Shown here: piece by piece, positions 35,057 through 61,208 of the stretch | How the letters are laid out: each line of letters starts with the position of its first letter | Numbering within the stretch: the stretch's first letter is position 1 | DNA from: Cordylochernes scorpioides | Lineage: Eukaryota > Arthropoda > Arachnida > Pseudoscorpiones > Chernetidae | DNA length: 64,000 bases | Direction: 5' to 3' | NCBI GenBank assembly: GCA_030710605.1 | Contig: CP092863.1 | Span: 109,282,087 to 109,346,086 of the forward strand | Made by a program: the position numbers and the translations under genes | The notes under the pieces: generated by a model | The model's input: only the letters and a program-made list of their open reading frames with translations | Database searches by the model: none | What the model was told of the DNA's origin: nothing

Positions 35057-35453
35057 CAGGGTGATCCAAAAGTCCCGCACTATTTTAAAAATTAATAACT
35101 CCGCGAATATTTGCGCAAGAGCAATGCGGTAAACACCATTGTATTCAGGATGCAATGGGAATTTTTATGGCAAATAATGAAAAATTCGAAATTGATTTTA
35201 GTTACAATTTTATTCGCCAGATGGCGCTCTACCAGAATAAGAGATTCAGCGGCCAAATTGTTTGATAAATTGAAAAATATAACTGATCGACACGTATTTT
35301 TCCTTTTGGAATACCAGGAAAGAACCCTAATAATATCAAATAACAAATTAATAAAACACCACTTCGCCAAAAGTATGAAGAATTGTTTAACGATTTTAAA
35401 TACAATCAGAGATATGTAAAATAGGTAAATGCAAATTAAAACATGTAGCAAAA
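35057..35453 (+). repeat. Left terminal inverted repeat, copy 1
   Basis: 397 bp from CAGGGTGATCC to ACATGTAGCAAAA. It is the complement of 45828-46225 with only scattered differences. Its inner part reads like the start of the transposase (see 45834-46061). Confidence 0.88.
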
Positions 35454-36214
35454 TATTTATTTTTATATGAGGTTTTGTGAAATAGATTGAATGTTTGAAA
35501 AACACTGCTGATATCAATACACGAATTTTTGAAAAAAAATATGATAGCACTATTAATTGGATTTCTTGCTATAAGAAATGTGTAGTTTCTTGACTGATTG
35601 GCGACCCTTGACTATTTAACTGGATATTTGTCATGATCCAACAAATGAAATATAGAGGGAAGTGACAAAATATATTTGTCGTACTTTATTCCAAATATCC
35701 TATGGGCTTGTCAAATGTTATCATTGTTTATTATACTGTACACAATTTTAAAAATGTGTCCCCTCAAATAAAAATAAATTTTAAATCGACCTTTTGCGTT
35801 GAAAAACGTGGTAGTAAAATCATTTTGTATTATTTTTTTTCACAAAATTTCTAAAGTTATTGATGTACAGAAAATATTCCTTATTCTACATGTATTTCTT
35901 ATGTATGTATTTCTATGTTATCTATTATCTATGTATTTCTTCTAATGAGCGAAAAGCGAAAAACTAAACATAAGGGGTAAAATTGTGTGTACCAGTGTTA
36001 TTCGAGAAGTTATAACACTCTGGTTTGCACGACATAATATGTGAGCAAATGACAAACAAAATATTACTGTTCACAAAAAAGAAGAGTCAAGATGTGAGGA
36101 CAGCATTTATTATCCCCATATCCCAACACAAAGAGCTGCAAAATATTGATAGATAATATAATACATGGCGGCTTATACAACACATGAGGTAACTGCTTTC
36201 TCTCTTGTATTAGG

Positions 36215-36937
36215 TCACAATCCTTGCTCAATGTGGCACCCTCATTCTCAATCACCGCCTGCAGACGATAAATGACAGAATGGACAGCATTAAATAACAT
36301 ATCTGTTAAATTGATAAAGCGTGCCATCTGATAGAAGCCTTCAACATGGCTAATGTGGTAGGCCAGCATCGATAAACACACGATTTAATGTATCCCCATA
36401 AACAAAAATCGCAAGGCGTTAAGTCTGTTGATCTTGGAGGCCACTGGTATATAAAGTGGCGACCTATCACACGATTTTCACCGAAAGTATCCTTCAGCAA
36501 TTGTTTGGCACCTCGGGAGATATGAGGAGGTCCTCCATCTTTCATGAATGTTATTTCGCTTAGTGCTTTTACCCTGCAATATGGGAATACCCTTTTCTCA
36601 TAACGTTCACCAGTTACAAAAACGGTTTTAAAAAGTTCTTCCATTGATTTTTCAAAGAAAAATGACCCAATAATAAAAGAAGTGAACTCACACAAAACTG
36701 TAACTCTAGGCTGGTAAAGTGGCATTTCTGTGAAAATCCTAGGGTTTTCTGTTGCCCAAATGCGGCTGTTTTGAATGTTAAATTCTCCGTTTAGAGAAAA
36801 GTGAGCATCATCTGTCCACAGAACATTCGACAGCCAGTTTTCATCAATATCAATTTGCCGAAAACCCATGCAGCGAATTCTTGACGCATCTCAAAATCGC
36901 AAACTTTCAGCTCGTGAAATCTTTGCATTTTGTATGG
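36215..36937 (-). pseudogene. DD41D-like mariner-superfamily transposase, body (copy 1)
   Basis: Motifs on the minus strand: MQRFHELKVCDFEMRQEFA; NVLWTDDAHFSLNGE with the first Asp; FMKDGGPPHISRGAKQLL with the second; and PRSTDLTPCDFCLWGYIKS with the third. About 42 residues separate the last two Asp, nearest to the DD41D (rosa-like) group rather than DD34D mariners. The frame is broken near 36380-36310 and the C-terminus is shifted. The N-terminal part is missing here because LINE A begins at about 36941; it should continue in the right terminal repeat. The transposase would act on the CAGGGTGATCC ends. Copy 2 is at 59336-60078. Confidence 0.8.
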
Positions 36938-36940
36938 GCA

Positions 36941-39266
36941 CACACAATAGAGGACATTAAGTGAAGCGTATTCGGATATCACAATCATACTTCGGCGAAT
37001 TTAACGCCAAAAGTTCAATTCGGGGATCACCTGTCCAGGATAACAAAAGTCAGTAGGTTGAGGACATGCTAACCGACCTCGACCTTACACCGTTAAATAA
37101 CGGAGAGAACACCTATCTATCTAAGTCCACAGGCACAGAATCCGCAATAGACATCACAGCGATAAATTACAACATCGCACCCACAACACAATGGAAAATC
37201 CTGAGAGGTGCAATCAGTGACCACAGACCAATTTTAACAACCCTAAACTTCAAAATTGAGAATGTCCATTAGAATAAAAGAACATGGAACTTTAGGAAAG
37301 CCGACTTGAAAAAAATTCACAGAAAAGCTTGAAGAACTGTGCAGCGAAAAAATGAATTACAGAACGCTTGACAAAAGCTTGGAAAAATTCTCTTCGAACA
37401 TTTAAAAAGCTGCAAAGAGCATCGATAACTAGAGGTAGACGTAAAGACCTGTGGATAAATTACTGGAAGGACCACAACATCGAGGCAATGATTTCAAAGA
37501 GAGAGACAATATCAATGGACTTCTTAAAACAAATAAAACAGAAAGGAACTTATTGAAATTATTCACAAAATATAACAAGAAATTTGGATATTCAAACAAG
37601 AAAAATGGCAGAATTCTGCGAAAAAAATGGATCCAAGAAAGGACAGCCAACACTGTAATATAATTAGAGTGTTAGAGAACAATCAAACCAACACCAATCC
37701 TCCAATACTCTAACCGATATGAATAGAACAGCGAGAACGAGAACAAACAGATGGCTGACATAATTGCTGAATATTTTTCAAGCACTTCCATTCTCAACTA
37801 TACGAATGAAGACAGGAATCTAAAAATAATATAAACCAGTTAGTTAAACAAGCAAGAAACTTCCATCAACAAGATATTTTCTCGAGAGACTTCACTCTGA
37901 ATGAGCTAAACTCATCAATAAAAAAATCCAAGAGGTCACCAAGAGATAATCTAATCTTTGGTCAAATGATTAATACTTTGTAAAATACCAGAACGAATTA
38001 TCCACTCTAGGCTCATAGTCTGGCTCACAAAAAATAATAAAATAAACCTCTACCAAACGGCCTATAGATCCCAGCACTGTACAACTGATAAACTGTTCTA
38101 CTTCTGTCAATCAATAATAGATTCTTTCCGGGAAAAACCGCCAAAGAAGACCACGGCTATATTCCTTGATATGACCTCAGCTTTTGATCGAGTGTGGAGG
38201 GAGAAATTACGTGAAAAGCTGCACAACATCGGAGTAAGAGGAAAAACCTTAATCTGGATTGCAGACTTCTTAAGGGGAAGAAGGTTAAAGGTTCGGGTCA
38301 ATGGAGAATTTTCCAAGGAAGGAAGAACATGGGCTGGTGTACCTCAGGGATCTTTGCTCAGTCCTCTACTCTATCTGCTATATATTAACGACATACATCC
38401 TTACCTCACTGAAGACACAAAGGTTGCCTGTTATGCAGATGATAAAGCCATATGGCACACAAGTAGCAGCATAGAAAAATCGTAAAAGATACTGAAGACA
38501 TCAATGAGAGGACTGGAGAAGTGGGCAATGGAACTCCAAATGACCATAAACCCAATAAAACCAAACCTATGCGTCTTCTCCACTCCCAGGGAAAAAGGCA
38601 TAAATATAACCACAAAATAAGCATAAACAAACAAATAATTGATAAAATTTGAAATCCATAATACCTAGGTGTGATACTGCAGTCCTGGATCTTTCCAGTT
38701 GGTCTCGAGGACCACGCCATCACCATCTCCTAAGCGGCGAAGTACGCGATCTACGTATTCATCGTAGATCGCAAAATGCGTGGTGTCGCTGGAGACCCAC
38801 TGGCGATTCTCCACCAAACTCTGCAGCGCTGGCAGAGGCGCCATATTCATTGTACATAGTGTGTATAATGCATATTATCTTTTTTTTAATAGTGCAGACT
38901 GTGTATGTATTGACAAGATGTCAACAAAATTATTTTAATTATTATTTATGAGGAATTTTAATTTTCATAGCACATAATTAGCACCTCAAATGGAGCTATC
39001 AGAAAACTAAACATTCTGAGAAGGCTATGTGGAACAAATTGGGGAGCAAAACCCAGAATTCTTAGAACAACATATACCACCTTAATAAACCGATAATGGA
39101 ATATGCAACACCGGTCTGGGCTCCCTCAAGCTCATCACTAAAAGTAAGACTAAACAGTGTTCAAGCAAAAGCGGCCAAAATAATCACTGGTGCAGTTTCA
39201 TCCATCAACAATGAGAAAATTCAGAGAGAATGTGTTCTAGACCTACTCGCTCGAAAGCAGAAGACA
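36941..39266 (+). pseudogene. LINE A endonuclease and reverse transcriptase (copy 1)
   Basis: It begins inside the endonuclease domain (the copy 2 counterpart reads ITIILGEFNAKSSIWGS; then SAIDITAI, ISDHRPILTT at 37100-37272). A decayed linker follows, then reverse transcriptase: MTSAFDRVWREKL at 38170, GVPQGSLLSPLLY, CYADDKAIW (38420-38450). The thumb PRYLGV-type stretch is cut at 38680 by a 268-bp foreign segment and resumes at 38947 (AIRKLNILRRLCGTNWG). It ends at LLARKQKTK, where LINE B begins. The C-terminal RNase H part continues at 44885. Stops and shifts are frequent. The domain order fits the I/Jockey superfamily. Confidence 0.82.
38665..38850 (-). CDS. 61-codon frame in a captured GC-rich segment (copy 1)
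   Basis: A 268-bp foreign insert (38680-38947) interrupts LINE A. On the minus strand it has an AT-rich leader and then an ATG-initiated frame starting MNMAPLPALQSLVENRQWVS and continuing with THFAIYDEYVDRVLRRLGDG. Its last codons run into LINE A sequence, so the source protein is cut after about NWKDPG. The coding stretch is GC-rich, unlike its surroundings, and is identical at every base to copy 2 (57251-57436), although the leader and the LINE flanks differ. It contains a 10-bp stem, GCGATCTACG. I do not recognise the protein; it looks like a first coding exon taken from a host gene, but that is an inference. Confidence 0.45.
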   Translation of the reverse strand: MNMAPLPALQSLVENRQWVSSDTTHFAIYDEYVDRVLRRLGDGDGVVLETNWKDPGLQYHT

Positions 39267-41613
39267 AAATAAAAACAACTTGGATCGGCACTTCGGAAAC
39301 GAGGAACCAGAGGACGAGATCTCTCTGACCACTTGTGGTTTGGTGGATCCGCCCTTTTCTGAGAATGAGGTGAAACTGACGGCTTTCAGGTTCGGGAAAA
39401 GGAAATCTCTGGTCCCGAAGGGATCGATAACACGGTCGTGAAAGCCCTGGTAAGAATGCAACCCATCGCTTCTTTCCAGGTTATTCAATATGTGCCTGGA
39501 CACTGGTACATTTCCTGAGGCATTGAAGGTTGCCCGAGTAGTGCTTCTCGAAAAGTCTGGTAGAAAGGGTAATTCTCCTAATGATTATCGTCCGTTTTCT
39601 TTACTAGTGTGTCTAGGTAAGGTCCTGGATAGCCTACTAGCTCAGCGACTGAAGCACTGGCTAGAGAGTAATGAGCTCCTTTCCTCTTTCCAACATGGTT
39701 TTAGGGAAGGGAAGTCCACAACCACAGCTCTGAACGAGGTGTTAGAGGGGGTTGAGATGGGCTTAAATAAGGGTGCTTGGGTTCTTTTCGTGGCCCTGGA
39801 CATTGATGGCGCGTTCAACTCCATGAGCTGGAACAAGTTGATGAGAAATTTGATGGACATGGGTTGTCCTGATAATTTGTGCAGCTTGATTCGTGACTTC
39901 CTGAGGGATAGACGGATTAGCCTCAGTTTTGGTGGGCGGAAGTTGGAAAGAAACTGTGCTAGGGGTTGCCCCCAGGGCTCTTGCTGCGGACCTATTCTGT
40001 GGAATATCCTGGTAAACACCGTTTTCCAGGAGGAGCTCCATGAGGGAGCCAGGCTGGTTCTCTATGCTGACGACCAGTTCCTCATCATTGAGGCTGTTTC
40101 GAGAGCGAAGGCTGAGAAGTGTGTTTGAAACTTCTCTCCAAATTTTCTCGATCTGGGCCCATGACTCTGGCCTTAAGTTCAATGTCTCCAAAACTAAAGC
40201 CCTCAGCTTTAAGCCTAGGGACATAAGAACTAAAAGGAAAGGGATCAAATGGGAACACAAGCCGGCTATCGGGATCGAAGGACAGAGGGTAGCGTTAGTC
40301 AATAGGATGACCATCCTGGGGGTGGTCATTGATGACAAGATGGGTTGGCAATACCAGGCGGAGGAGATGGTGGCGAGAGGCAGGGGAGGCGTTGTGCAGG
40401 CCTGTCCTGGTTGGCCCTCAACAGGGGGGGGGGGAGAGAGAAGGAGGGTACTTTTTTAGGAACCTCTGCCTCTCCTGTGTCGAGCCAATCTTGCTATATG
40501 CTTCCGGGGCTTGGTAGCGCCGAAACAGGGATCAGAAGGTGGCAACAACTCTAGAGAGAGTGCAGAGGACAGCGGGTACTCAGAATCACAGGGGGATATC
40601 GTACTACCAGCAGTGAGGGCCTTTTTGGTCTCGCTCGGCTTATTCCCTGGGATTGAAACTAGAGGAGGAGACCATCAGACAGAAGATCTGGGAGAAAAGG
40701 GAAGATGCCCTGGGACTTTAAGCGGGGGCCCTGGAATCGAAGAGGGGACACAAGGAAAGCCTCCGCAGTGGTTGCCAAAGTGGAATTGGAGTCCTAGAGG
40801 GCCGACAGGAATTGGCACGGAGGTTTTCACTGATGGTAGTAAGTCTGGAACCAATACTGGAGCTGGGGTAGTGATATACACTAATGGAGAGCTGATCTTC
40901 CAAGAAGGTTTAGCACTCAGAGTGGACGAATTGGTCTTTTCAGCCGAGCTGGTTGCGATCAGGGTAGCCCTCAGAGTGTGTGCCGAGAAGAACTTCAGCC
41001 CGGACCGCCTCTATTCAGATTGTATGTCGGCCCTCGTCGTTATCAATCTGGAGAAAGGGCAACTCGCGTATCAAATAATCCAGGAGCTGGAGATGATGAC
41101 GCGGGCTCCGGAGCTCCCTTGGTTTAGGAGACACAGCCTCATCGAAGGTAATGAGTTCGCAGACAGGATCGCTAAGGCCGATGCTTTAGAGGTAGATCAC
41201 TGAGGACCCCAGTGACCAAGAAAGAAGTTTATAGGAGGATCAGGGGTCACGTCCAGGACTTATGGTTGGACAGATGGAGGAACAGTGTGAAGGGGAGAGA
41301 GGTATTCAATTGGGTAACAACACCCAAGTACCTCGGTAAGGTAATGTCCCACAAACTCATTAGGGTAGTTCGGGACATGGGCTCTTCCCCAAGTCTCCAC
41401 AGATTTAAAATTAAGAGAAACCCTGATTGCGTCTATGGAGACAGGGATGTGAATGCACGCCACTACGTCTTGGATTGTCCAAGGGTAGTGGGTGTGCAGG
41501 AAGAGAGAAGGAGGGCGAGGGGCGCGATCGAGAGTAAGCTGCTGAGAAATCACAGCAAGCTTCTTGAGAAAGCCCACGACGTGGCAGCTGAGCTTTTCCT
41601 CAGCTGTGAGTGA
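39267..41613 (+). pseudogene. LINE B, R1-like, RT plus RNase H (copy 1)
   Basis: Motifs in order: GTFPEALKVARVVLLEKSG and YRPFSLLVCLGKVLD; FVALDIDGAFNSM (39795-39830); GCPQGSCCGPILWNIL; LYADDQFLI (40060-40085); thumb ILGVVIDDKMGW. After a G-run and frame break comes RNase H with FTDGS (40830), ELVAIRVALR, LYSDCMSAL and EGNEFADRIA. The C-terminal Cys/His end has CVYGDRDVNARHYVLDC. GCPQGS followed by GP is typical of the R1/I group. Frames break at about 40128, 40459 and 41205. The 3' UTR probably runs to about 41860, where it meets the 3' end of LINE C. Copy 2 has lost two internal blocks. Confidence 0.82.
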
Positions 41614-41879
41614 ACAGAGTCGACCGGGGCTGCCTCCCCGCGGTCCCTGCTGGACACAGTAGATAGTTTCCTATTTTGCTGTGATTAAAGGCCACCGGTA
41701 TAGAAATCCTTCCAGACACGTTGTCTGGGAGGTGGTGTTTCCAGGTACAATGTCCAAGCACTAGCTTGGATACCGTTACTTTGCTTATGAGTTGAACAGA
41801 ATAGCAGCGAAGGGCATGCTTCGCATGCCGGTTTGTGGACTGAAAGGTCTGGGTGGCCATCTGCTTCTAGGGTGTACCA

Positions 41880-44800
41880 ACTGTGCTCAGGTGGGATCCT
41901 CCAGTTCTTGTTTATTTTGGCTACTGTTTCTATTTCTTTAAAAGTAAGTTTATTTTTCTGTAGCAAGGGTTCTTTTGTGCCTTTTTTCGCTAGCGCATCA
42001 GCAGCTTCATTGCCTTCAATGCTAACGTGTAAGGGTATCCATTGAAGGTGAATTTTTGAGGTATTGAGAGTTTTTGGAGATAACCAATTATGTTCCTGCT
42101 TACTTCTCTCTAAGTTCCCCTGTGTGACTCAAGTGTTGTATGGCACTTCTACTATGAGTAAGAATCCATATATCGTGATGTTTAGTATTTCTGATGGATT
42201 TTAAGACTTCATAGATGGCTATAAGTTTTGATCTGAAGATTGAGCAAAAACTGGGTTTCTTCTGTTCATTTTCTCATTGCCATTTGTGGTTTTAATGAGA
42301 GAGCCACTGCCAGTTTGTCCCAACTCGTCTCTGCTACCATCGTATAGATAGTTATTGCATTTTTAGGAATTTTATTAATTATTTCTAATGATAATTGTTT
42401 TAAGTATTCTGGATTTTGGTATTGTTTGTTGGTGGGTTCGTTTAAAGTGGCATTAAAAATAACATTTTGTTAGTGGTTCGCATGTAGATATTTTTTCAGC
42501 TAAATAATATTTTTCCACTTTATATTTTAAAAATCCATTTCTTTTGGCCAGGTGGAGAGGGCCTTCTTTTTTGAGTCTTATATTGGGTTCCCAAATAAGT
42601 ATGTAATTGAAAGTTCTGTGTTTATTTTCATAACTCTTGATTTTGTTTATATATTTTGGTAGATTGTGCTTATTCTATCCTTTAAGGGCATAATGTCTGC
42701 CTCGCAAAGTACAATATTATTAGGGCAGGTATTTCGAAGACCTGTAATAATTCTAAGTGCATTTAGTTGTATCCTTTCCAGTGTTTTTATATTTGTTTCA
42801 GATGCTGTACCATAGATTTGATATCCATATTCCAAGATAGGTCTCATTAGAGATGTGTAAGTTAATTTTAGTGTTGTTGCTTCAGCTCTCTACTCTTCCT
42901 GAAATATATTTCAAGATTTTTAGTCGGTTTCTTCCTTTTCTAACAACTCCTTCAATATGTTTACTGGAGTTAATTTCTGGATCCAGGGTGTAGCCGAGAT
43001 ATTTAGGATGTTTATTATATTGCAATTGTTGTTCTTTCAGAATAATATTTGGTCTTATTTTGTATAGTTTCTTATCTGTAGTAAAAAGACAGGTTTCAGA
43101 TTTTTGGGGGTTAAATTCTAATTTATGTTTATTAGCAAATTTTTCTAGGTGGAGGAATAGTCTTGTTCAAATCTCTTTCAGCTTTTTTCCAGTTAGTGTG
43201 CTGCTCCATAGAATAATGTCATCATATATTTTTAAGGGAATCATTTATCCAAGTGATAGCTTTTCCATCAATTTTGAAATGTTTGTATAATTTTGTAATT
43301 AACTTGTTTTTCCATACCTTATCAAAAGCTTGTGTAAGGTCTAAAAAGCAGCTATGGTGTGGTTAGTTGGCTTTTTGTTTTGTGCATCTTTTACCTTTTG
43401 TGTGAAAAATAGAGTTGGACTATTGTCCCATGTCCTTTCCTAAATCCATATTGTTTCTTCTGTTAAGAGATTTCTTGTGTCGGGGAGGTAGGTGAGTCGT
43501 CTGAATATATTTTTTTCCATTAATTTAAGCAAATATTTGTGAGGGAGATAGGTCGGTAGTTTTTTGGGTCATCAGCAGATTTGTCAAGTTTTTTAATGGG
43601 AATTATTGTTACATTTTTACAGTCTTGAGGCAATTTTCTAGTTTTCCAGGAGTTATTGAAAATATTAAGAAGTCTTTCTTTGCCAATTTTGCCCAAGTTT
43701 GATATCATTCGGCCATGGATTCCATCTGGCCCAGGAGTCTTGTTTTAGGTCAGTGTTTTCTAATGCATAAGCTAGCTCTTTCATATTGATTTTTTTCATG
43801 GAAAATATTATGAGTGCTGGTGACATTTTTACAGTCATGAATAATCTTTCGGGCCTTTTTTCAACCTTGATTTTACTACTTATTTGATATGAATTACCTA
43901 AAAGATTGGCAGCAATTTTGTCATTAGTTGCTGGTGTACCATCTGTATTCTCAATCATATTTGTGTTTTCAGTTTGTGGCTGGACTCTGTCAATTTGTTT
44001 TGCCAAATTCCAAAGTTTTGTATTTGGGTTTCTTGGGTTCAGGTTTTCACAAGTTTGTTTCCATTTTTCCCTTTTTCACATTTACGTATAATATTTTTAT
44101 TTTTGCAATCACAATGTTCAGTTCAGTTCTACAATTTGTTTGGTTTTGGGTGCACTTTTTTGTAGTTCATTTCTTTTAGTTATAAGTGTTTGAATATTTT
44201 TTGCCTGGTGTGTATAATTTGGAATCCATTTCTTAATATAACCTCTTGGTATTGAAACTTTGGCTGCTTTAATAATGGTGTTTTCGAAAGATATCATATT
44301 AGCCTTTTTGAAGTTCCATAATTTTTCTTAATTGAGCTAGTTTTGGTCTTGGTGCTAATTTCTATCAAATAGGCAAATGATCACTTTCAAAACCTTTTAA
44401 TATTTTGCTATTTGCATTTGTGGAAAATGTCAGGATAGTAAAAACTTATATATAAAGTTGGAATCCTCTGATAAGTATAAGTAACATAATACTTATAGTA
44501 AAAACTTATATCAAGGGCTTGTGCAGTATTATAGCTGTAGGAATGATGGGTAGGATTCCCATCATTTAAGCACATGAAGGCATTGTCGTCAAATATGTTT
44601 GATAGTATTTTGCCTCTTGGGTTTGGCGTAGAACATCCCCATAGTTTATGCTTGGCATTAAGGTCACCTAAAATAATAGTGTTGTCTGTAAGAAATTGAG
44701 CCATTGTTCCATCGTCAATAAATGTATTGTTTGGAGGGTGATACATATTGTATATGTTGATGGCTTTGTTTTGATTGAGGTAGACTTTGATACCTTGGGT

Positions 44801-44880
44801 TTCGAGGTCTAATGTGTTTGGAATATTAACGGCTATGTCCTCATAGTACAAATTCTTGATTAAAAATGCTAGGCCACGCC
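41880..44880 (-). pseudogene. LINE C, opposite strand (copy 1)
   Basis: Read on the minus strand from 44880: endonuclease (NIYNMYHPPNNTF, ILGDLNAKHKLWGC, 44850-44408), a decayed linker, RT fingers (CKNVTIIPIKKLDKS, NYRPISLTNIC near 43620-43520), palm and thumb pieces (FDKVWKNKL region near 43320; RPILEYGYQIYGTASE at 42840), and RNase H (TDGSRDELG near 42330; GNEAADALAKKGTKEP near 42020). The frame has many stops. It is inserted in LINE A's RNase H coding region, splitting it at a TAYTD motif near 44885. Copy 2 (52210-55330, plus strand) is better preserved. Confidence 0.8.
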
Positions 44881-44884
44881 CTTT

Positions 44885-45695
44885 AACAGCATATACAGAT
44901 GATCTTCAGACCTTACCCTGAGTAATGGAGGGGCCGGAATTAACATAATACTGCAAGATGGAACAAACATCAAAATCAAAGAAGGAGCAGGACAGATTTC
45001 GTCAAACTTCACTTGTGAACTGACAGCTATCTGGAAAGCCCTTGATGTATGCCTTAACCAACCATCCCTGCATCAAGCAGAAGGAATTTTAATATACAGC
45101 GACTCCATATCCGCTCTAGAAGCAATTCAGAAGGGCAATACTAAAATCACACAGAAAATACACTCGTTACTTACCCAACTGGAACCATTGGAGAATAACT
45201 GCATTCTAACATTGGATCCCTGTCCATGCTGGGATCGGGAGTAATGAAATGGCATTTGAATTGGCAAAGGAAGCCAGAAAGTTGAGCCAAAGGAAAGAAC
45301 AAATGCCATTATTTGACGCTGATTCTTTGTCAGAATACAAGATAATTAAACAAAAAAACAAGAAAAGATCAAAATGCTAAATAAACTCTGAGAGAAAAAT
45401 GACAAAAACTATAACAAGACTTAGAACAAAACACTATAAAGGAATGACAATACATCCAGATGGCACAAGAACTTATAGGGCATGCAACAATTGTCCTGGG
45501 GTGGAACTTACACCTACCCACATATTCTCATGTCCAGCAATGGCCGCAGCCTTGCAGAAATTTGACATAGACCCAGAGCAGCAGCTTTACACACCCAAGA
45601 TAGTGGACATTGCTGCTGATGTGATGGAGACGCATGGTACATCTGAGGCTCTTTATTGGACACGACAACAACAACGGCATTCCAGAGTAAAATAA
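44885..45695 (+). pseudogene. LINE A RNase H and C-terminus (copy 1)
   Basis: An RNase H remnant (TAYTD, SSNFTCELTAIWKAL, IYSDSISALEAIQKG, frames shifting) is followed by a clean 98-codon frame at 45399-45695 with a Cys/His end, ACNNCPGVELTPTHIFSCPA. This is the continuation of LINE A, which stops at 39266. The TAA at 45693-45695 is followed by AT-rich 3' sequence and then the right terminal repeat. Confidence 0.72.
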
Positions 45696-48769: not shown

Positions 48770-48826
48770 TATGTATATATAGTATTTTAACACAAAGCAA
48801 TGACGCGCGCGTCATCTATATATATA

Positions 48827-50883: not shown

Positions 50884-51283
50884 CAGGGTGATCCAAAAGT
50901 CCCGCACAACTTTAAAAATTAATAACTCCGCGAATATTCGCGCTAGAGCAATGCGGTAAACACCATTGTGTTCAGGATGCAATGGGATTTTTTTATGGCA
51001 AATAATGTAAAATTGGATATTGATTTTAGTTACAATTTTATTCGCCAGATGGCGCTCTACCAGAATCAGAGATTCAGCGGCCAAATTGTTTGATAAATTG
51101 AAAAATATAACTGATCGACACGTATTTTTCCTTTTTGAATACCAGGAAAGAACCCTAATAATATCAAATAACAAATTAATAAAACACCACTTCGCCAAAA
51201 GTATGAAGAATTGGTTAACGATTTTCAAATACAATCAGAGATATGTAAAATAGGTAAATGCAAATTAAAACATGTAGCAAAAA
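50884..51283 (+). repeat. Left terminal inverted repeat, copy 2 (holds transposase start)
   Basis: Matches 35057-35453 and the complement of 60811-61208. An ATG at 51049 opens MALYQNQRF on the same strand as the transposase body at 59336-60078. Confidence 0.8.
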
Positions 51284-51414
51284 GAAAATTGATATTTTAG
51301 ATACGGTTTGTTTCCGAAGATAATAAATTTCTAATATTTTTAAATCAACCCTCACTCAGTATCGATTATATTTATTTTAATTCATTTGAAAAATATGTAT
51401 CTATCTCTGATAAT

Positions 51415-52200
51415 TTATTTTACTCTGGAATGCCGTTGTTGTTGTCGTGTCCAATAAAGAGCCTCAGATGTACCATGCATCTCCATCACATCAACAGCAA
51501 TGTCCACTATCTTGGGTGTGTAAAGCTGCTGCTCTGGGTCTATGTCAAATTTCTGCAAGGCTGCGGCCATTGCTGGACATGAGAATATGTGGGTAGGTGT
51601 AAGTTCCACACCAGGACAATTGTTGCATGCCCTATAGGTTCCTGTGCCATCTGGATGTATTGTCATTCCTTTATAGTGTTTTGTTCTAAGTCTTGTTATA
51701 GTTTTTATCATTTTTCTCTCAGAGTTTATTTCGCATTTTGATCTTTTCCTATTTTTTGTTTAATTATCTTGTATTTTGACAAAGAATCAGCGTCAAATAA
51801 TGACATTTGTTCTTTCCTTTGGCTCAACTTTCTGGCTTCCTTTGCCAATTCAAATGCCATTTCATTACCCCTGATCCCAGCATGGGCAGGGATCCAATGT
51901 AGATTGCAGTTATTCTCCAATGGTTCCAGTTGCGTAAGTAACGAGTGTATTTTCTGTGTGATTTTAGTATTGCCCTTCTGAATTGCTTCTAGAGCGGATA
52001 TGGAGTCGCTGTATATTAAAATTCCTTCTGCTTGATGCAGGGATGGTTGATTAAGGCATACATCAAGGGCTTTCCCAGATAGCTGTCAGTTCACAAGTGA
52101 AGTTTGACGAAATCTGTCCTGCTCCTTCTTTGATTTTGATGTTTGTTCCATCTTGCAGTATTATGTTAATTCGGCCCCTCCATTACTCAGGGTAAGGTCT
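51415..52200 (-). pseudogene. LINE A RNase H and C-terminus (copy 2)
   Basis: Counterpart of 44885-45695. The 98-codon end frame (51711-51415) keeps ACNNCPGVELTPTHIFSCPA. Upstream at 51920-51726 the RNase H end reads WIPAHAGIRGNEMAFELAKE, better preserved than in copy 1. The start of RNase H is decayed. Confidence 0.72.
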
Positions 52201-52209
52201 GAAGAACCA

Positions 52210-55200
52210 TCTGTATATGCTGTTAAAGGGCGTGGCCTAGCATATTTAATCAAGAATTTGTACTATGAGGACATAGCCATTAATATTCCAAACACATTAG
52301 ACCTCGAAGCCCAAGGTATCAAAGTCTACCTCAATCTAAACAAAGCCATCAACATATACAATATGTATCACCTTCCAAACAATACATTTATTGACGATGG
52401 AACAATGGCTCAATTTCTTACAGACAACACTATTATTGTAGGTGACCTTAATGGCAAACATCAACTATGGGGATGTTCTACGTCAAACCCAAGAGGCAAA
52501 ATACTATCAAACATATTTGACGACAATGTCTTCATTTGCTTAAATGATGGGAATCCTACCCATCATTCCTACAAGCTATAATACTGCACAAGCCCTTGAT
52601 ATAAGTTTTTACTATCCTGACATTTTCCAAAAATGCAAATAGCAAATATTAAAAAGTTTTGGAAGTGATAATTTGCCTAATTTGATAGAAATTAGCACCA
52701 AGACCAAAACTAGCTCAATTAAGAAAAATTATGGAACTTCAAAAAGGCTAATATGATATCTTTCGAAAACACCATTATTAAAGCAGTCAAAGTTTCAATA
52801 CCAAGAGGTAATATTAAGAAATGGATTCCAAATTATACACACAAGGCAAAAAATATTCAAACACTTATAACTAAAAGAAATGAACTACAAAAAAAGTGCA
52901 CCCAAAACCAAACAAATTGTAGAACTGAACTGAACATTGTGATTGCAAAAATAAAAAGATTATAGGTAAATGTGAAAAGGGAAAAATGGAAACAAACCTG
53001 TGAAAACCTGAACCCAAGAAACCCAAATACAAAACTTTGGAATTTGGCAAAACAAATTGACAGAGTCCAGCCACAAACTGAAAACGCAAATATGATTAAG
53101 AATACAGATGGTACACCAGCAACTAATGACAAAATTGCTGCCAATCCTTTAGGTAATTCATATCAAATAAGTAGTAAATTCAAGGTTGAAAAAGGCCCGA
53201 AAGATTATTCATGACTGTAAAAATGTCACCAGCACTCATAATATTTTCCACGAAAAAAATCAATATGAAAGAGCTAGCTTATGCATTAGAAAACACTGAC
53301 CTAAACAAGACTCCTGGGCCAGATGGAATCCATGGCCGAATGATATCAAACTTGGGCAAAATTGGCAAAGAAAGACTTCTTAATATTTTCAATAACTCCT
53401 GGAAAAATGGAAAATTGCCTCAAGACTGTAAAAATGCAACAATAATTCCCATTAAAAAACTTGACAAATCTGCTGATGACCCAAAACACTACCGACCTAT
53501 CTCCCTCACAAATATTTGCTGCAAATTAATGGAAAAAATTATACTCAGACGACTCACCTACCACCCCGACACAAGAAATCTCTTACCAGAAGAACAATAT
53601 AGATTTAGGAAAGGACATGGGACAATAGACCAACTCTTATTTTTCAAACAAAAGGTAAAAGATGCACAAACAAAAACCAACTAACCACACCATAGCTGCT
53701 TTTTAGACCTTACACAAGCTTTTGATAAGGTATGGAAAAACAAGTTAATTACAAAATTATACAAACATTTCAAAATTGATGGAAAATCTATAACTTGGAT
53801 AAATGATTCCCTTAAAAATATATACATCAGGGTCGAATATAATGGCACTCTATCTAAAACCTTCAAATTGTACCAAGGATTACCACAAGGATCAGTCCTT
53901 AGCCCAACTCTCTTCACCCTATTTATTGCAGGCATAGAAGAAAATTTTCACATAAAACCAATATTGGACTTTTCGCTGATGACATTATTCTATGGAGCAG
54001 CAACACTAACTGGAAAAAAGCTGAAAGAGATTTGAACAAGACTCTTCTCCACCTGAAAAATTTTCTAATAAACATAAATTAGAATTTAACCCCCAAAAAT
54101 CTGAAACCTGTCTTTTTACTACCGATAAGAAACTATACAAAATAAGACCAAATATTATTCTGAAAGAACAACAATTGCAATATAATAAACATCCTAAATA
54201 TCTCGGCTACACCCTGGATCCAGAAATCAACTCCAGTAAGCATATTGAAGGAGTTGTTAGAAAAGGAAGAGACCGACTAAAAATATTGAAATATATTTCA
54301 GGAAGAGTGGGGAGCTGAAGCAACAACACTAAAATTAACTTACACATCTCTAATGAGACCTATCTTGGAATATGGATATCAAATCTATGGTACAGCATCT
54401 GAAACAAATCTAAAAACACTGGAAAGGATACAACTAAATGCAACTAGAATTATTACAGGTCTTCGAAATACCTGCCCTGATAATATTGTACTTTACGAGG
54501 CAGACATTATGCCCTTAAAGGATAGAATAAGCTACAATCTGCCAAATGTATAAACAAAATCAAGAGTTATGAAAACAAACACAGAACTTTCAATTACATA
54601 CTTAATTGGGAACCCAATATAAGCCTAAAAAAAGAAGGCCCTCTCCACCTGGCCAAAAGAAATGGATTTTTAAAATATAAAGTGGAAAAATATTATTTAG
54701 CTGAAAAAATATCTCCATGCAAACCACTAACAAAATGTTATTTTTAATGCCACTTTAAATGAACCCACCAACAAACAATACCAAAATCCAGAATACTTAA
54801 AACAATTATCATTAGAAATAATAAATACAATTCCTTAAAAAATGCAATAACTATCTATACCGATGGTAGCAGAGACGAGTTGGGACACACTGGCAGTGGC
54901 TCTCTCATTAAAACCACAAATGGCAATGAGAAAATAAACAGAAGAAACCCAGAATTTTGCTCAGTCTTCAGATCAGAACTTATAGCCATCTATGAAGTCT
55001 CAAAATCCATCAGAAACACTAAACATCATGATATATGGATTTTTACTGATAGTAGAAGTGCCATACAACACTTGAGTCACACAGGGGAACTTAGAGACAA
55101 AGTAAGCAGGAACATAATTGGTTATCTCCAAAAACTCTCAATACCTCAAAAATTCACCTTCAATGGATACCCTTACATGTTAGCATTGAAGGCAATGAAG

Positions 55201-55330
55201 CTGCTGATGCGCTAGCGAAAAAAGGCACAAAAGAACCCTTGCTACAGAAAAATAAACTTACTTTTAAAGATATAGAAACAGTAGCCAAAATAAACAAGAA
55301 CTGGAGGATCCCACTTAAGCACAGTTAGTA
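52210..55330 (+). pseudogene. LINE C, endonuclease-RT-RNase H (copy 2)
   Basis: In order on the plus strand: endonuclease (INIYNMYHLPNNTF, IVGDLNGKHQLWGC, 52153-52581); linker with KTPGPDGIHGRMISNLGKI (53290); RT fingers CKNATIIPIKKLDKS and HYRPISLTNICCKLME (53211-53684); palm FDKVWKNKL (53720), GLPQGSVLSPTLF (53880) and a broken FADDIILW (53970); thumb ILEYGYQIYGTASETN (54353-54553); RNase H TDGSRDELGHTGSGSL (54860), FTDSRSAIQHL (55035), GNEAADALAKKG (55180-55220). The catalytic motifs can nearly all be found, but stops and shifts divide the frame into at least eight pieces. It is inserted on the opposite strand to LINE A. Confidence 0.82.
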
Positions 55331-55344
55331 CACCCTAGAAGCAG

Positions 55345-56828
55345 GTGGCCACCCAGACCTTTCGGTCCACAAGCCGGCATGCGGAGCATGCCCTTCGCTG
55401 CTATTCTGTTCAACTCATAAGCCAAGTAACGGTATCCAAGCTAGTGCTTGGAGATTGTACCTGGAAACACCACCTCCCAGACAACGTGTCTGGAAGGATT
55501 TCTATACCCGTGGCCTTTAATCACAGCAAAATAGGAAACTATCTACTGTGTCCAGCAGGGACCGCGGGGAGGCAACCCCCGGTCGACTCTGTTCACTCAC
55601 AGCTGAGGAAAAGCTCAGCTGCCACGTCGTGGGCTTTCTCAAGAAGCTTGCTGTGATTTCTCAGCAGCTTACTCTCGATCGCGCCCCTCGCCCTCCTTCT
55701 CTCTTCCTGCACACCCCACTACCCTTGGACAATCCAAGACGTAGTGGTGTGCATTCACATCCCTTTCTAAAATAGACGCAATCAGGGTTTCTCTTAAGAA
55801 GGTTCCTAAAAATATTACCCTCCTTCCCCCCCCCCCCCCCCCCCCCTGTTGAGAGCCAACCAGGACAGGCCTGCACAACGCCTCTCTGCCTCTCGCCACC
55901 ATCTCCTCCGCCTGGTATTGCCAACCCATCTTGTCATCAATGACCACCCCCAGGATGATCATCCTATTGACCAACGATACCCTCCGTCCTTCCATCCGGA
56001 TAGCCGGCTTGAGTTCCGATTTGATCCCTTTCCTTTTAGTTCTTATGTCTCTAGGCTTAAAGCTGAGGGCTTTAGTTTTGGAGACATTGAACTTAAGGCC
56101 AGAGTCATGGGCCCAGATCGAGAGAATTTGGAGAGAAGTTTCAACACACTTCTCAGCCTTCGCTCTCGAAGCAGCCTCAATGATGAGGAACTGGTCGTCA
56201 GCATAGAGAACCAGCCAGGCTCCCTCAGGTAGCTCCTCCTGGAAAACGGAAATTTCTCATCAGCTTGTTCCAGCTCATGGAGTTGAACACGCCATCAATG
56301 TCCAGGGCCACGAAAAGAACCCAATCACCCTTATTTAAGCCCATTTCAACCCCCTCTAACACCTCGTTCAGAGCTGTGGTTGTGGACTTCCCTTCCTTAA
56401 AACCATGTTGGGAAGAGGAAAGGAGCTCATTACTCTCTAGCCAGTGCTTCAGTCGCTGAGCTAGTACACTATCCAGGATCTTACCTAGACACACTAGTAA
56501 AGAAAACGGACGATAATCATTAGGAGAATTACCCTTTCTACCAGACTTTTCGAGAAGCACTACTCGGGCAACCTTCCATGCCTCAGGAAATGTACCAGTG
56601 TCCAGGCACCTATTGAATAACCTGGAAAGAAGCGATGGGTGCATCCTTACCAGGGCTTTCACGACCGTGTTATCGATCCCTTCGGGACCAGGAGATTTCC
56701 TTTTCCCGAACTTGAAAGCCGTCAGTTTCACCTCATTCTCAGAAAAGGGCGGATCCACCAAACCACAAGTGGTCAGAGAGATCTCGTCCTCTGGTTCCTC
56801 GTTTCCGAAGTGCCGATCCAAGTTGTTT
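55345..56828 (-). pseudogene. LINE B, internally deleted (copy 2)
   Basis: Minus strand: 56821-56225 has GNEEPEDEISLT, SPGPEGIDNTVVKALV and YRPFSLLVCLGKILDSV, then FVALDIDGVFNSM; a deletion joins NKLMRN to a later part of RT, removing the GCPQGS and neighbouring motifs. Then come ILGVVIDDKMGW (55990-55920), a long C-run, and a second join that drops the RNase H domain and lands on NPDCVYF, VNAHHYVLDC. The 3' UTR lies at 55660-55345. Compare the full version at 39267-41613. Confidence 0.8.
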
Positions 56829-59333
56829 TTATTTTGTCTTCTGCTTTCGAGCGAGTAGGTCTAGAACACATTCTCTCTGAATTTTCTCATTGTTGGTGGA
56901 TGAAACAGCACCAGTGATTATTTTGGCCGCTTTTGCTTGAACACTGTCTAGTCTTACTTTTAGTGATGAGCTTGAGGGAGCCCAGACCGGTGTTGCATAT
57001 TCCATTATCGGCCTTATTAAGGTGATATATGTTGTTCTGAGAATTCTGGGTTTTGCTCCCCAATTTGTTCCACATAGCCTTCTCAGAATGTTTAGTTTTC
57101 TGATAGCTCTATTTGAGGTGCTAATTAAGTGTTCTGAAAATTCCAATTCCTCATCAATAATAATTAAAATAATTTTGTTGACATATTGTCAATACATGCA
57201 AAGTCTGCACTATTAAAAAAAGATAATATGCATTATATACACGATGTACAATGAATATGGCGCCTCTGCCAGCGCTGCAGAGTTTGGTGGAGAATCGCCA
57301 GTGGGTCTCCAGCGACACCACGCATTTTGCGATCTACGATGAATACGTAGATCGCGTACTTCGCCGCTTAGGAGATGGTGATGGCGTGGTCCTCGAGACC
57401 AACTGGAAAGATCCAGGACTGCAGTATCACACCTAGGTATTTTGGATTTCTATTTTATCAATTAATTGGTTGTTTATGCTCATTTTGGGGTTATATTTAA
57501 GCCTTTTTTTCCCTGTCAGTGGAGAAGACGCATAGGTTTGGTTTTATTGGGTTTATGGTCATTTGGAGTTCCATTGCCCACTTCTCCAGTCCTCTCATTG
57601 ATGTGTTCAGTATTTTTTACGATTTTTCTATACTGCTACTTGTGTGCCATATGGCTATATCATCTGCATAACAGGCAACCTTTATGTCTTCAGTGAGGTA
57701 AGGATGGATGTCGTTAATATATAGCAGATAGAGTAGCGGACTGAGCACAGATCCCTGAGGTACACCAGCCCATGTTCTTCCTTCCTTGGAAAATTCTCCA
57801 TTGACCCGAACCTTTAACCTTCTTCCCCTTAAGAAGTCTGCAATCCAGATTAAGGTTTTTATTCTTACTCCGATGTTGTGCAGCCTTTCACGTAATTTCT
57901 CCCTCCACACTCGATCAAAAGCTGAGGTCATATCAAGGAATATAGCCGTGGTCTTCTTTGGCGGTTTTTCCTGGAAAGAATCTATTATTGATTGACAGAA
58001 GTAGAACAGTTGATCAGTCGTACAGTGCTGGGATCTATAGGCAGTTTGGTAGAAGTTTATTTTATTATTTTTAGTGAGCCAGACTATGAGCCTAGAGTGG
58101 ATAATTCGTTCTGGTATTTTAAAAAGTATGCAGGTGAGAGCAATTGGCCGATAGTTCTTGTATTCCTTGGCATCTTTGTTTGGCTTCAGTATTGGCACTA
58201 TAATTGATATCTTCCAATTCTTTGGTAGTTTACCAGTTTGCCATGAAATGTTCAGTATTCGTAGGAATTGAATATCAGCTTTGTCTTCAAAGTGTTTAAT
58301 CATTTGACCAAAGATTAGATTATCTCCTGGTGACCTCTTGGATTTTTTTATTGATGAGTTTAGCTCATTCAGTGTGAAGTCTCTCTCGAGAAATTATCTT
58401 GTTGATGGAAGTTTCTTGCTTGTGTTTAACTAACTGGTTTATATTATTTCAAAGTCCTGTCTTCATTCGTATAGTTGAGTATGGAAGTGCTTGAAAGATA
58501 TTCGGCAATTATGTCAGCCATCTGTTTGTTCTCGTTCTCGCTGTTCTATTCATATCGGTTAAAGTATTGGAGGATTGGTGTTGGTTTTGATTGTTCTCTA
58601 ACACTCTAATCATATTCCAGTGTTGGCTGTCCTTTCTTGGATCCATTTTTTCGCAGAATTCTGCCATTTTTCTTGTTTGCATATCTAAATTTCTTGTTCT
58701 ATTTTGTGACTAATTTCAATGAATTCTTTTATGTTTTCTTCTATTTTATTTGTTTTAAGAAGTTCATTGATATTGTCTCTCTCTCTGAAATCATTGCCTC
58801 GATGTTGTGGTCCTTCCAGTAAGGTATCCACAGGTCTTTAAGTCTACCTCTAGGTATCGATGCTTTTGCAGCTTTTGAAATGTTCGAAGAGAATTTTTTC
58901 AAGTTTTTGTCAAGCGTTCTGTAATTCAATTTTTCGTTGCACAGTTCTTCAAGCTTTTCTGTGAATTTTTTTCAAGTCGGCTTTCCTAAAGTTCCATGTT
59001 CTTTTATTCTAGTGGACATTCTCAATTTTGAAGTTTAGGGTTGTTAAAATTGGTCTGTGGTCACTAATTGCACCTCTCAGGATTTTCCATTGTGTTGTGG
59101 GTGCGATGTTGTAATTTATCGCTGTGATGTCTATTGCGGATTCTGTGCCTGTGGACTTAGATAGATAGCTGTTCTCTCCGTTATTTAACGGTGTAAGGTC
59201 GAGGTCGGTTAGCATGTCCTCAACCTGCTGACTTTTGTTATCCTGGACAGGTGATCCCCAAATTGAACTTTTGGCGTTAAATTCGCCGAGTATGATTGTG
59301 ATATCCGAAGACGCTTCATTTAATGTCTCTATT
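56829..59333 (-). pseudogene. LINE A endonuclease and RT (copy 2)
   Basis: Minus strand: endonuclease ASSDITIILGEFNAK (59300), ITAINYNIAPTTQW, ISDHRPILTTLN (59479-59009); linker; RT in a clean 228-codon frame (58303-57617) with YRPIALTCILFKIPERI, TAIFLDMTSAFDRVW, GVPQGSVLSPLLYLLY and CYADDIAIW; the foreign 266-bp segment at 57156-57421; thumb AIRKLNILRRLCGTNWGAK (57146-56829). This is the best preserved LINE A RT in the window; YADD and GVPQGS are intact. Confidence 0.83.
57251..57436 (+). CDS. 61-codon frame in a captured GC-rich segment (copy 2)
   Basis: Identical over the coding part to 38665-38850. The leader (57156-57250) differs from copy 1 at several positions. It lies between LINE A's conserved thumb words LGVI and ELEFSEHL, so the insertion point is exact. 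The frame begins with two ATGs three codons apart, MNM. The origin is unknown. Confidence 0.45.
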   Translation: MNMAPLPALQSLVENRQWVSSDTTHFAIYDEYVDRVLRRLGDGDGVVLETNWKDPGLQYHT

Positions 59334-59335
59334 GT

Positions 59336-60078
59336 GTGTACCCATACAAAATTCAAAGATTTCACGAGCTGAAAGTTGGCGATTTTGAGATGCGTCAAGA
59401 ATTCGCTGCATGGGTTTTCCGGCAAATTGATATTGATGAAAACTGGCTGTCGAATGTTCTGTGGACAGATAATGCTCACCTTTCTCTAAACGGAGAATAT
59501 AACATTCAAAACAGCCGCATTTGGGCAACAGAAAACCCTAGGAATTTTACAGAAATGCCACTTTACCAGCCTAGAGTTAAAGTTTTGTGTGGGTTCACTT
59601 CTTTTATTATTAAGCCATTTTTCTTTGAAAAATCAATGGAAAAACTTTTAAAACCGTTTTTGTAACTGGTGAACGTTATGTTCAACTTTTGAGAGAAAAG
59701 AGTATTCCCATATTGCAGGACAAAAGCACTAAGCGAAATAACATTCATGAAAGATGGAGGACCTCCTCATATCTCCCGAGGTGCCAAAAAATTGCTGAAG
59801 GATACGTTCGGTGAAAATCGTGTGATAAATCGCCACTTTATATACCAGTGGCCAAAAGATCACCAGACTTGACGCCTTGCGATTTTTGTTTATAGGGGTA
59901 CATTAAATCGTGTGTTTGTCGATGCTGGCCTACCACATTGGCCATGTTGAAGGCTTCTATCAGATGGCACGTTTTATCAATTTCAACAGATATGTTATTT
60001 AATGCTGTCCATTCTGTCATTTATCGTCTGCAGGCGGTGATTGAGAATGAAGGGTGCCACATTGAGCAAGGATTGTGA
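59336..60078 (+). pseudogene. DD41D-like transposase body (copy 2)
   Basis: It starts at YPYKIQRFHELKVGDFEMRQ right at the end of LINE A and runs through NVLWTDNAHLSLNGE (first Asp), a shifted stretch near 59665, MKDGGPPHISRGAKKLL (second Asp, 59752-59800), SPDLTPCDFCL (third Asp, about 59860-59885), to the normal family end IENEGCHIEQGL and TGA at 60076-60078. The C-terminus is intact here, whereas in copy 1 it is shifted. The N-terminus lies across LINE A in the terminal repeat at 51049-51283. Confidence 0.78.
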
Positions 60079-60810
60079 CCTAATACAAGAGAGAAGGCAG
60101 TTACCTCATGTGTTATATAAGCCGCCATGTATCATATTATCTACCAATATTTTGCAGCTCTTTATGTTGGGATATGGGGATAATAAATGCTGTCCTCACA
60201 TCTTAACTATTTTTTTTTTGTGAACAGTAATATTTTGTTTGTCATTTGCTCACATATTATGTCGTGCAAACCAGAGTGCTATAACTTCTCGAATAACACT
60301 GGTACACACAACTTTTCCCCTTATGTTTAGTTTTTCGCTTTTCGCTCATTAGAAGAAATAGCATAAGGAATATTTTCTGTACACTAATAACTTTAGAAAT
60401 TTTGTGAAAAAAATAATACAAAATGATTTTACTACCAAGTTTTTCAACGCAAAAGGTCGATTTAAAAATTATTTTTATTTGAGGGGACACATTTTTTAAA
60501 ATAGTGTACAGTATAATAAACAATGATAACATTTGACAAGCCCATAGGATATTTGGAATAAAGTACGACAAATATATTTTGTCACTCCCCTCTATATTTT
60601 ATTTGTTGGATCATGACAAATATCCAGTTAAATAGTCAAGTGTCGCCAATCAGTCAAGAAACTACACATTTTTTATAGCAAGAAATCTTATTAATAGTGC
60701 CATCATAATTTTTGGCACTATATTAACATTTCGAAAATCGTGTATTGATATCAGCAGTATTTTTCAAACATTCAATCTATTTCACAAAACCCCATATAAA
60801 ATATAAATAT

Positions 60811-61208
60811 TTTTGCTACATGTTTTAATTTGCATTTACCTATTTTACATATCTCTGATTGTATTTGAAAATCGTTAACCAATTCTTCATACTTTTGGCG
60901 AAGTGGTGTTTTATTAATTTGTTATTTTATATTATTAGGGTTCTTTCCTGGTATTCAAAAAGGAAAAATACGTGTCGATCAGTTACATTTTTCAATTTAT
61001 CAAACAATTTGGCCGCTGAATCTCTGATTCTGGTAGAGCGCCATCTGGCGAATAAAATTGTAACTAAAATCAATTTCGAATTTTTCATTATTTGCCATAA
61101 AAAATCCCATTGCATCCTGAATACAATGGTGTTTACCGCATTGTTCTAGCGCAAATATTCGTGGAGTTATTAATTTTTAAAATAGTGCGGGACTTTTGGA
61201 TCACCCTG
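60811..61208 (-). repeat. Right terminal inverted repeat, copy 2
   Basis: Complement of 50884-51283; ends GGATCACCCTG, then TA. Confidence 0.88.

Follow-up and report, generated by a model that had tools for sequence, protein, structure and literature searches.

Retroelement-laden composites of a Tc1/mariner-type transposon in Cordylochernes scorpioides and their probable mobilisation in trans

Two long composite elements lie in inverted orientation within a 64,000-nucleotide stretch of the Cordylochernes scorpioides genome (the window), and they very probably belong to a retroelement-laden, non-autonomous subfamily of a Tc1/mariner-type transposon, termed type I here, that was copied after loading and moved in trans. 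The two composites, E1 and E2, are not a special pair; they are ordinary members of a huge transposon family.

Two composites in the window

E1 (35057..46225, forward strand, 11169 bp) and E2 (50884..61208, reverse strand, inverted relative to E1, 10325 bp) each have TA on both sides. A sequence-only reading had proposed that the two intervals share one set of blocks in reverse order, and BLASTN and global alignment of E1 against the reverse complement of E2 uphold this with a collinear match that is 93-99% identical per 250-base window inside the element, the biggest differences being indels of 943, 167, 167, 154, 60 and 47 bp. The identical termini and flanking TAs described in that reading were likewise found on inspection of all four ends: within the window the 11-bp terminus CAGGGTGATCC occurs solely at 35057 and 50884; the complement is confined to 46215 and 61198. 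What had been called long terminal repeats are real repeats of about 0.4 kb, but they are terminal inverted repeats (TIRs), 95-98% complementary, and not direct LTRs. In E1 they occupy 35057..35453 (forward, about 397 bp) and 45829..46225 (reverse), and in E2 50884..51280 (forward) and 60812..61208 (reverse).

The type I order runs from TIR through transposase remnant, LINE A, captured segment, LINE B, reversed LINE C and the rest of LINE A to the second TIR. By tblastn, the remnant in E1 (36238..36970, reverse strand) is in three pieces that correspond approximately to residues 111-361 of an intact 368-aa relative, P0001; the first piece, 60% identical, overruns a deletion junction and is marginal, and the DNA-binding N-terminus is missing. 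That in E2 (59339..60075, forward strand, tblastn) is in two pieces, residues 121-368. The deletion junction, common to type I and with 13 bp between aligned blocks, lies at 36934..36946 in E1 and is followed by the 5' part of LINE A (36947..39278, forward), which bears endonuclease and reverse transcriptase pieces and encloses the captured segment (38679..38944, 266 bp between aligned blocks). Beyond it lie LINE B (39279..41650, forward; reverse transcriptase and RNase H; border with LINE C approximate), LINE C (41651..44881, reversed), the 3' part of LINE A ending in a (CAA)n tail (44882..45675, forward) and GGCATTCC (45676..45683, forward), one of the two target-site duplicates that flank LINE A in the transposase start, its counterpart being retained in type II copies. 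The corresponding blocks of E2 are the 3' part of LINE A (51435..52227, reverse), LINE C (52228..55557, forward), LINE B with the 943-bp deletion (55558..56822, reverse), the inner borders of both being approximate, and the 5' part of LINE A (56823..59332, reverse) with its captured segment at about 57158-57422. Domain scoring placed the LINE A reverse transcriptase on E1 and E2 and its endonuclease on E2; RNase H in the LINE A 3' part, and reverse transcriptase and RNase H in LINE C, were scored by Pfam on the E2 copy, and an endonuclease-like frame in LINE C was recognised by eye.

Copy number, ends and target sites

Genome-wide abundance was estimated from pattern counts at ≤3 mismatches, their sensitivity being gauged on 25 copies: E1, E2 and 23 copies fetched from 45 end pairs, which were assembled manually from the first 100 end matches listed and lie within the initial 18 Mb of contig C1. 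The 26-bp terminus has 15,145 matches (control 0), enough for about 7,570 elements, which together would make up roughly 3% of the genome of 2.62 Gb. Two junctions that are specific to type I and lie about 8 kb apart have 3,022 matches (the deletion junction) and 3,152 matches, with controls of 0, and each pattern fits 8 of the 9 type I copies and none of the 16 others. A composite described as present twice is thus correctly counted for the window, but the genome has about 3,000 copies of this architecture, so that the proposed search for further copies with the same ends and internal LINE junctions yielded thousands. The type II junction has 2,375 matches, a low count because just 9 of 14 type II copies fit the pattern; the LINE A 3' junction has 6,412 (control 0), with a pattern that fits 20 of 23 type I and II copies and neither of two type III copies. 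Median element length over the 45 end pairs is 11,345 bp, and none of these pairs delimits an element of unloaded size (2.5-3.5 kb). In a tree built from 23 copies, the short copies C7451k and C7691k being excluded from it and from the between-type distances, types I, II and III each separate with support 1.0.

Given the proximity of E1 and E2, only 4.7 kb apart and in opposite orientation, one copy might be thought to derive from the other by local duplication, whether inverted or segmental, or to be an artefact duplicated in assembly, and dispersed repeats are indeed common to some flanks of different copies. This is highly improbable. The likeness of E1 and E2 ends at the element termini and the flanks outside the TAs do not align, as the earlier reading, which named aligning flanks as the sign of a segmental duplication, had also stated; among the 25 copies there is no pair whose flanks align on both sides. 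E1 differs from C10397k and C6163k, about 100 Mb distant, by 1.7-2.0%, and from E2 by 3.2%, and the tree joins it to those two copies (support 0.996), apart from E2. An assembly duplicate is excluded because of this 3.2% divergence and the different nearest relatives. The thousands of copies genome-wide and the repeat in which E2 appears to have inserted also speak against duplication. Joined across the element, the E2 flanks align at 87% to 61737..61878 (reverse strand), a copy of the repeat apparently targeted, with a single TA, although the alignment spans only 27 bp on one side; the earlier reading had proposed a look for such empty sites. Three of the 25 copies (E2, C7515k and C8813k) have joined flanks for which the available sequence holds a match across the junction, the matches of the latter two being weaker than that of E2.

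The loaded composite, as had been suggested, moved as one unit, because the two type I junctions about 8 kb apart have near-equal counts; TA bounds each side of 23 of 23 fetched copies (picked by exact 11-bp ends), and the flanks of E1 and E2 are unrelated. LINEs can favour certain targets, and a common order might in principle reflect a hotspot at which the LINEs entered every copy independently after transposition. The chance of this is close to nil, since identical junction sequences are repeated 3,000-6,400 times, one of them being a deletion junction with its 13 extra letters. Independent LINE insertion in each copy was accordingly rejected on the identical junctions and the common deletion.

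The 397-bp arms are 94.4-99.7% identical within each copy (n=25). Repeats of the terminus were also sought within the TIR by a loose scan, which found nothing better than matches with 9 of 20 letters changed. Elsewhere in the genome, the 100 TTAGG matches listed out of 748 fall in a single interstitial array, and a hemocyanin search had no match in the genome or in its controls. Between types I and II the TIRs diverge by 5.7-6.0% and the transposase body by 8.3%; the lower TIR divergence fits selection on transposase-binding ends, and it fits exchange between ends as well.

Retroelement cargo in three lineages

LINE A sits near the second codon of the carrier transposase with a target duplication, GGAATGCC or a one-letter variant flanking it on each side. 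On the transposase side, the sequence was seen in 13 of 14 type II copies (GGAATGCC in 12 rows, GAAATGCC in one), and the side with the (CAA)n tail and GGCATTCC was seen in 13 of 14 type II and 8 of 9 type I copies, one with a one-letter variant. Both type III copies have an uninterrupted transposase start, GGGATGCC, for which the genome holds 540 matches (control 0), possibly not all of type III. LINE A therefore has the marks of a LINE insertion: target duplication, simple 3' tail and uninterrupted site.

Type II contains LINE A without the captured segment, has thousands of copies and carries an LTR-type insert inside LINE A that type I is without. Short direct repeats lie near each end of this insert (91% over 96 bp), with TTAAC on each side compared with a single TTAAC in E2; its integrase matches stay below curated cut-offs (rve 26.4 against 32.6 bits), and two further frames of the insert have no profile match. 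Type I has in addition the captured segment of about 0.27 kb, LINEs B and C, and the loss of the transposase DNA-binding region, about 960 bp being gone relative to type II (transposase N-terminus and LINE A 5' end). At the site of LINEs B and C type II has neither, and about 308 bp of its own sequence instead; comparison of types I and II gave no clean target-site duplication for LINE B, LINE C or the captured segment. Type III consists of 2.2 kb inverted arms, each with its own transposase gene copy, and between them a LINE filling of another kind; by BLAST the arms are longer arms only, with the inner TIR absent. Different retroelements were thus acquired in sister lineages.

Whether the loaded element might instead be a single autonomous giant transposon, with its reverse transcriptase-bearing segments as working parts, deserves consideration, because a 789-codon frame spans LINE B in the majority of the 9 type I copies and reverse transcriptase-type genes occur in all three architectures examined. 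It is nonetheless very unlikely. The types hold different retroelements at different places, the type I majority (n=9) already shows disrupted frames in LINE A and LINE C, LINE A has both a target duplication and an uninterrupted relative, and the type I transposase is without its DNA-binding part. Going by the majority of the 9 copies, LINE B alone would still have contained a long open frame in the founder.

The transposase, its candidate source and comparison with known systems

The earlier reading took the transposase of the composite to be split, and it is, but more has been lost: the N-terminal 110-120 residues or so are missing in 9 of 9 type I copies, none of which extends N-terminal of residue 111 by tblastn with P0001. 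The intact relative has a DUF4817 helix-turn-helix (8.5e-7) with no Pfam DDE family listed, and its catalytic part resembles Sleeping Beauty SB100X (E 4.7e-10). Among the 111 P0001 matches scored, the best of 45,280 first-look candidates, all are 96-100% identical over residues 1-367 or 1-368 and 84 are stop-free by manual count. A stop-free transposase was present in one of the two type III copies examined, in a single arm, and this fetched element has the same 26-bp terminus as type I; defective transposase and intact source with the same ends are hence together in this genome, for one fetched source. The loss in all nine copies and the full-length stop-free frames support the earlier proposal of a transposase from elsewhere, for which such frames are the putative supplier.

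The spread of type I is probably best explained by mobilisation in trans. Each loaded founder would have been copied after cargo uptake, the transposase of type III-like elements recognising the shared ends in trans and moving composites of 11 kb by cut-and-paste; gap repair or replication timing would account for the rise in copy number, and the LINEs would be passengers. That type I was instead mobilised by the transposase of another family, undetected or host-domesticated, is unlikely, although several observations lean that way: over the 0.4 kb TIR, type III differs from type I by 7.3-7.7%, no 2.5-3.5 kb element appears in the 45 end pairs, and across the two type III copies one frame only is stop-free. 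On the other side, type III agrees with type I within 3 mismatches over the last 26 bp, and its transposase has many stop-free relatives. The TIR difference in itself leaves room for a donor other than type III.

A broader reading, doubtful but conceivable, is that members of this family normally carry retroelements and succeed in that state, separate lineages having been loaded and each having then multiplied in a burst to copies of 11-14 kb in their hundreds or thousands. If so, the transposase or the end structure (inverted arms that are long and were extended repeatedly, as in a natural 'sandwich') would be unusually length-tolerant, and dead LINEs would have multiplied via a DNA transposon. 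With several thousand elements, mostly 11-14 kb, the family offers stop-free transposase genes and matched ends for testing length tolerance, and it is a clear case of broken retroelements multiplied by DNA transposition. Annotation that counts LINE pieces would ascribe thousands of transposase-made LINE copies to retrotransposition.

By its sequence features the carrier is a Tc1/mariner-type transposon, with TA insertion, terminal inverted repeats and a DDE/D transposase with a helix-turn-helix. The excerpts of PMC5490172 give 1-5 kb as the length of Tc1/mariner elements, which the median here exceeds; insertions explain the excess, and membership therefore rests on ends and transposase. The same excerpts describe the aphid elements LTIR (DD40-41D) and rosa (DD41D), with 183 sequences over all groups in three aphid genomes. 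Both are likewise Tc1/mariner with D as third catalytic residue, and LTIR has a long TIR (460-466 bp, about 400 bp here) and a transposase of 351-370 aa (368 aa here), but LTIR measures 2.3-2.4 kb, whereas the copies here are abundant, retroelement-laden and 10-14 kb long. LTIR and rosa also have other terminal letters and a D spacing of 40-41, compared with 42 between the second and third D in four type III frames (residues by eye). The bee DD41D/VS elements are nearly equal in the spacing of the last two catalytic residues, but those with complete ORFs measure 1,024-2,258 bp and number 1-401 copies in the excerpts of PMC8472432, which give a CAGGG start for DD37D/maT.

Tc1/mariner integration efficiency falls with length, according to an excerpt of PMC4229213. 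For Sleeping Beauty, however, PMC8151067 lists a cargo capacity above 100 kb, so that long cargo as such is not excluded and length tolerance is less exceptional; it also describes the 'sandwich' vector pT/SA, which has extra inverted ends around its cargo and is reported to be three-fold more efficient for transgenes above 7 kb. Type III, with inverted transposase-bearing 2.2 kb arms round its cargo, resembles pT/SA as described there, but the vector is engineered and type III has no inner TIR.

Among open-licence papers, judged by titles and abstract starts, no equivalent of a nested or composite element amplified as a unit was described, and the matches listed for the 11-bp terminus concern unrelated subjects. 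In MITE-type derivatives, defective copies are moved in trans through shared ends, and retroelements can nest in transposons. Non-autonomous derivatives of DNA transposons are usually short deletion products, however, and nests are usually immobile, whereas here the long loaded nest is itself the amplified unit. The process is of a known kind, here on an unusually large scale.

Structure and insertion sites of the window pair

The two composite DNA transposons of the window, E1 (35057-46225, 11,169 bp) and E2 (50884-61208, 10,325 bp, inverted relative to E1), align collinearly in inverted orientation at 93-99% identity per 250-base window inside the element, with largest indels of 943, 167, 167, 154, 60 and 47 bp, and the similarity ends at the element termini. 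The sequence-only reading of two inverted 10-11 kb blocks is borne out by this match, save that its "long terminal repeat" ends are inverted repeats of ~0.4 kb. Its identical termini with TA on each side are likewise confirmed at both elements: the 11-bp terminus occurs in the window at the four expected positions only, and a looser 21-bp scan returns the identical four.

Joined with a single TA, the flanks of E2 match two window segments across the junction: 61878-61737 at 87%, and 2313-2450 at 78% with a gap where the flanks meet. To the left of the junction these alignments span just 27 and 21 bp, respectively. From this, E2 seems to have landed in a dispersed repeat of which unoccupied copies are available. 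Copies of this repeat, ~0.1-0.2 kb long and 78-87% like the right flank of E2, lie at 2313-2450, 32456-32562, 50684-50883 and 61737-61878. No comparable match across the joined flanks of E1 was found in the window or the fetched loci. E1 is closer to two copies from elsewhere in the genome, C10397k (1.7% difference) and C6163k (2.0%), than to E2 (3.2%), so the pair came from separate insertions.

Between E1 and E2, an open mariner transposase frame on the minus strand (47555-48619, 355 codons between stops; Transposase_1 match, 1.3e-13) is a second, different TA-type transposon. The captured segment inside LINE A (38679-38944) may be a short interspersed element.

Abundance and three architectures

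The genome holding the window (2.619 Gb, 24 contigs) contains 7,752 and 7,750 exact matches to the 11-mer terminus (reversed control, 267 and 290), and 7,593 and 7,552 to the 26-bp terminus at up to three mismatches (control, 0); half of the latter total gives an estimated ~7,570 elements. Among 45 end pairs formed by hand from the first 100 listed places (10 were left unpaired), element length has a median of 11,345 bp, a mean of 11,444 bp and a range of 1,420-18,344 bp, with 24 pairs at 10.5-12 kb, eight at 13-15 kb and none of the 45 at 2.5-3.5 kb. Element number multiplied by length puts the family at an estimated ~87 Mb, or some 3.3% of all genomic sequence. Two pairs 14,535 and 14,532 bp long, separated by only 5 kb (G000:C1:4754588-4769122 and 4774121-4788652), are perhaps a true segmental duplication, unlike E1 and E2. 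An interstitial (TTAGG)n array of more than 600 bp lies at G000:C1:4116714-4117352.

Twenty-three of the 45 pairs were read and typed by comparison with E1 and with another copy, C8248k. Type I, the architecture of the window, accounts for seven in addition to E1 and E2. Type II (14 of 23) has the carrier and LINE A in common with type I, bears an LTR-type insert of ~4.4 kb within LINE A, and has neither the captured segment nor LINEs B and C, with further deletions in several copies; C7451k, in which the insert was not seen, was assigned here on ~95% identity. By eye the insert is gypsy-like; its termini carry short direct repeats, TTAAC is duplicated, and Pfam gives sub-threshold integrase matches only. 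Type II transposase sequence is retained from residue 1-19 onward in 14/14 copies, but is broken. In type III (two of 23), inverted arms of 2.2 kb, 94-95% alike, flank ~10 kb of central sequence that holds different LINE pieces; in copy C7515k, Pfam detects endonuclease, RNase H and, in the opposite direction, reverse transcriptase (RT). At L027 (G000:C1:17991487-18000073), a 1,420-bp derivative formed by deletion, its ends intact, adjoins a larger type II element that lacks part of its own end, an arrangement either nested or end-sharing.

In a tree built for 23 of the 25 copies from the parts that they share, types I and III each form a group with support 1.0 and are separated from type II, also at 1.0; internal branches within types are mostly short. 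Between types, again over 23 of 25 copies, the difference is 8.3-8.4% for the transposase body, 5.7-7.7% for the terminal inverted repeats (TIRs) and, comparing I with II, 9.1% for LINE A; within types I and II it is 2.6-4.0%. Copies of type I diverge by 1.7-5.3% pairwise and by 1.4-3.6% from their own majority sequence. In a side branch of type I, represented by copies C9149k and C9748k, the right end in inverted form has taken the place of the left end and the TIR has grown to ~477 bp; with the type III arms, arm extension has thus occurred at least twice.

Probable order of loading and mobilisation in trans

LINE A lies where the transposase gene begins, near the second codon. Its 3' junction, in which GGCATTCC follows a (CAA)n tail, was recovered in 8/9 type I and 13/14 type II copies, with a letter changed in one of them; C6163k, outside that count, has the junction with an indel, and it was not found in C10173k. 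On the other side, GGAATGCC (12 copies) or GAAATGCC (one) precedes the transposase frame in 13/14 type II copies; among the 14 checked, this duplicated side was not found in C7691k. Both type III copies have an uninterrupted transposase start with GGGATGCC. Type I has lost ~960 bp including the transposase N-terminus, and 13 bp separate the aligned blocks there. Junction patterns, their sensitivities measured on the 25 copies and each with a control of 0, match genome-wide at 6,412 places for the LINE A 3' junction, 540 for the uninterrupted start, 3,022 for the type I deletion junction, 3,152 for the LINE C/LINE A junction ~8 kb from it, and at least 2,375 for the type II insert junction. Since the captured segment is absent from type II and the LTR-type insert from type I, lineages I and II were probably loaded separately, after LINE A.

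In the frames of E1 and E2, which are short and interrupted, Pfam detects endonuclease, RT and RNase H in the LINE A pieces and RT and RNase H in both LINE B and LINE C. The majority of the nine type I copies keeps a 789-codon frame across LINE B, with LINE A and C frames of at most 280 codons; LINE B is thus probably the latest arrival, and LINEs A and C were probably passengers already broken at the burst.

The transposase match of type I starts at residue 111-122 in 9/9 copies, so type I lacks the DNA-binding domain and hence cannot make a complete transposase; mobilisation in trans would be the natural reading. A 368-aa frame of C7515k, P0001, has a DUF4817 helix-turn-helix, similarity to the catalytic domain of the Sleeping Beauty transposase SB100X, and 42 residues between its second and third D (residues picked by eye). 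It is the one stop-free full-length frame among the two type III elements read, the frames in the second arm of C7515k and in each arm of C9620k being interrupted. Genome-wide, the best 111 of 45,280 first-look candidates were scored against P0001: all 111 are 96-100% identical to it across residues 1-367 or 1-368, and 84 were counted as stop-free candidate donors. The earlier proposal, that the loaded transposon moved as one unit with a transposase from elsewhere, is supported and extended; its donor part, while still inferential, is backed by the missing N-terminus in all nine type I copies and by these candidates.

Comparison with known systems

What sets the family apart is its scale, the differing cargo of its sister lineages and the presence of stop-free candidate donors. 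Among the titles and abstract openings listed from open-licence PMC literature on nested and composite elements, none mentions a Tc1/mariner composite that carries retroelements and has reached thousands of copies. The closest described carriers found, the long-TIR DD40-41D elements of aphids (PMC5490172) and the DD41D/VS elements of bees (PMC8472432), are, in excerpts of those reports, short and low in copy number. For Sleeping Beauty, an excerpt describes a sandwich arrangement for large cargo and lists a capacity above 100 kb (PMC8151067).
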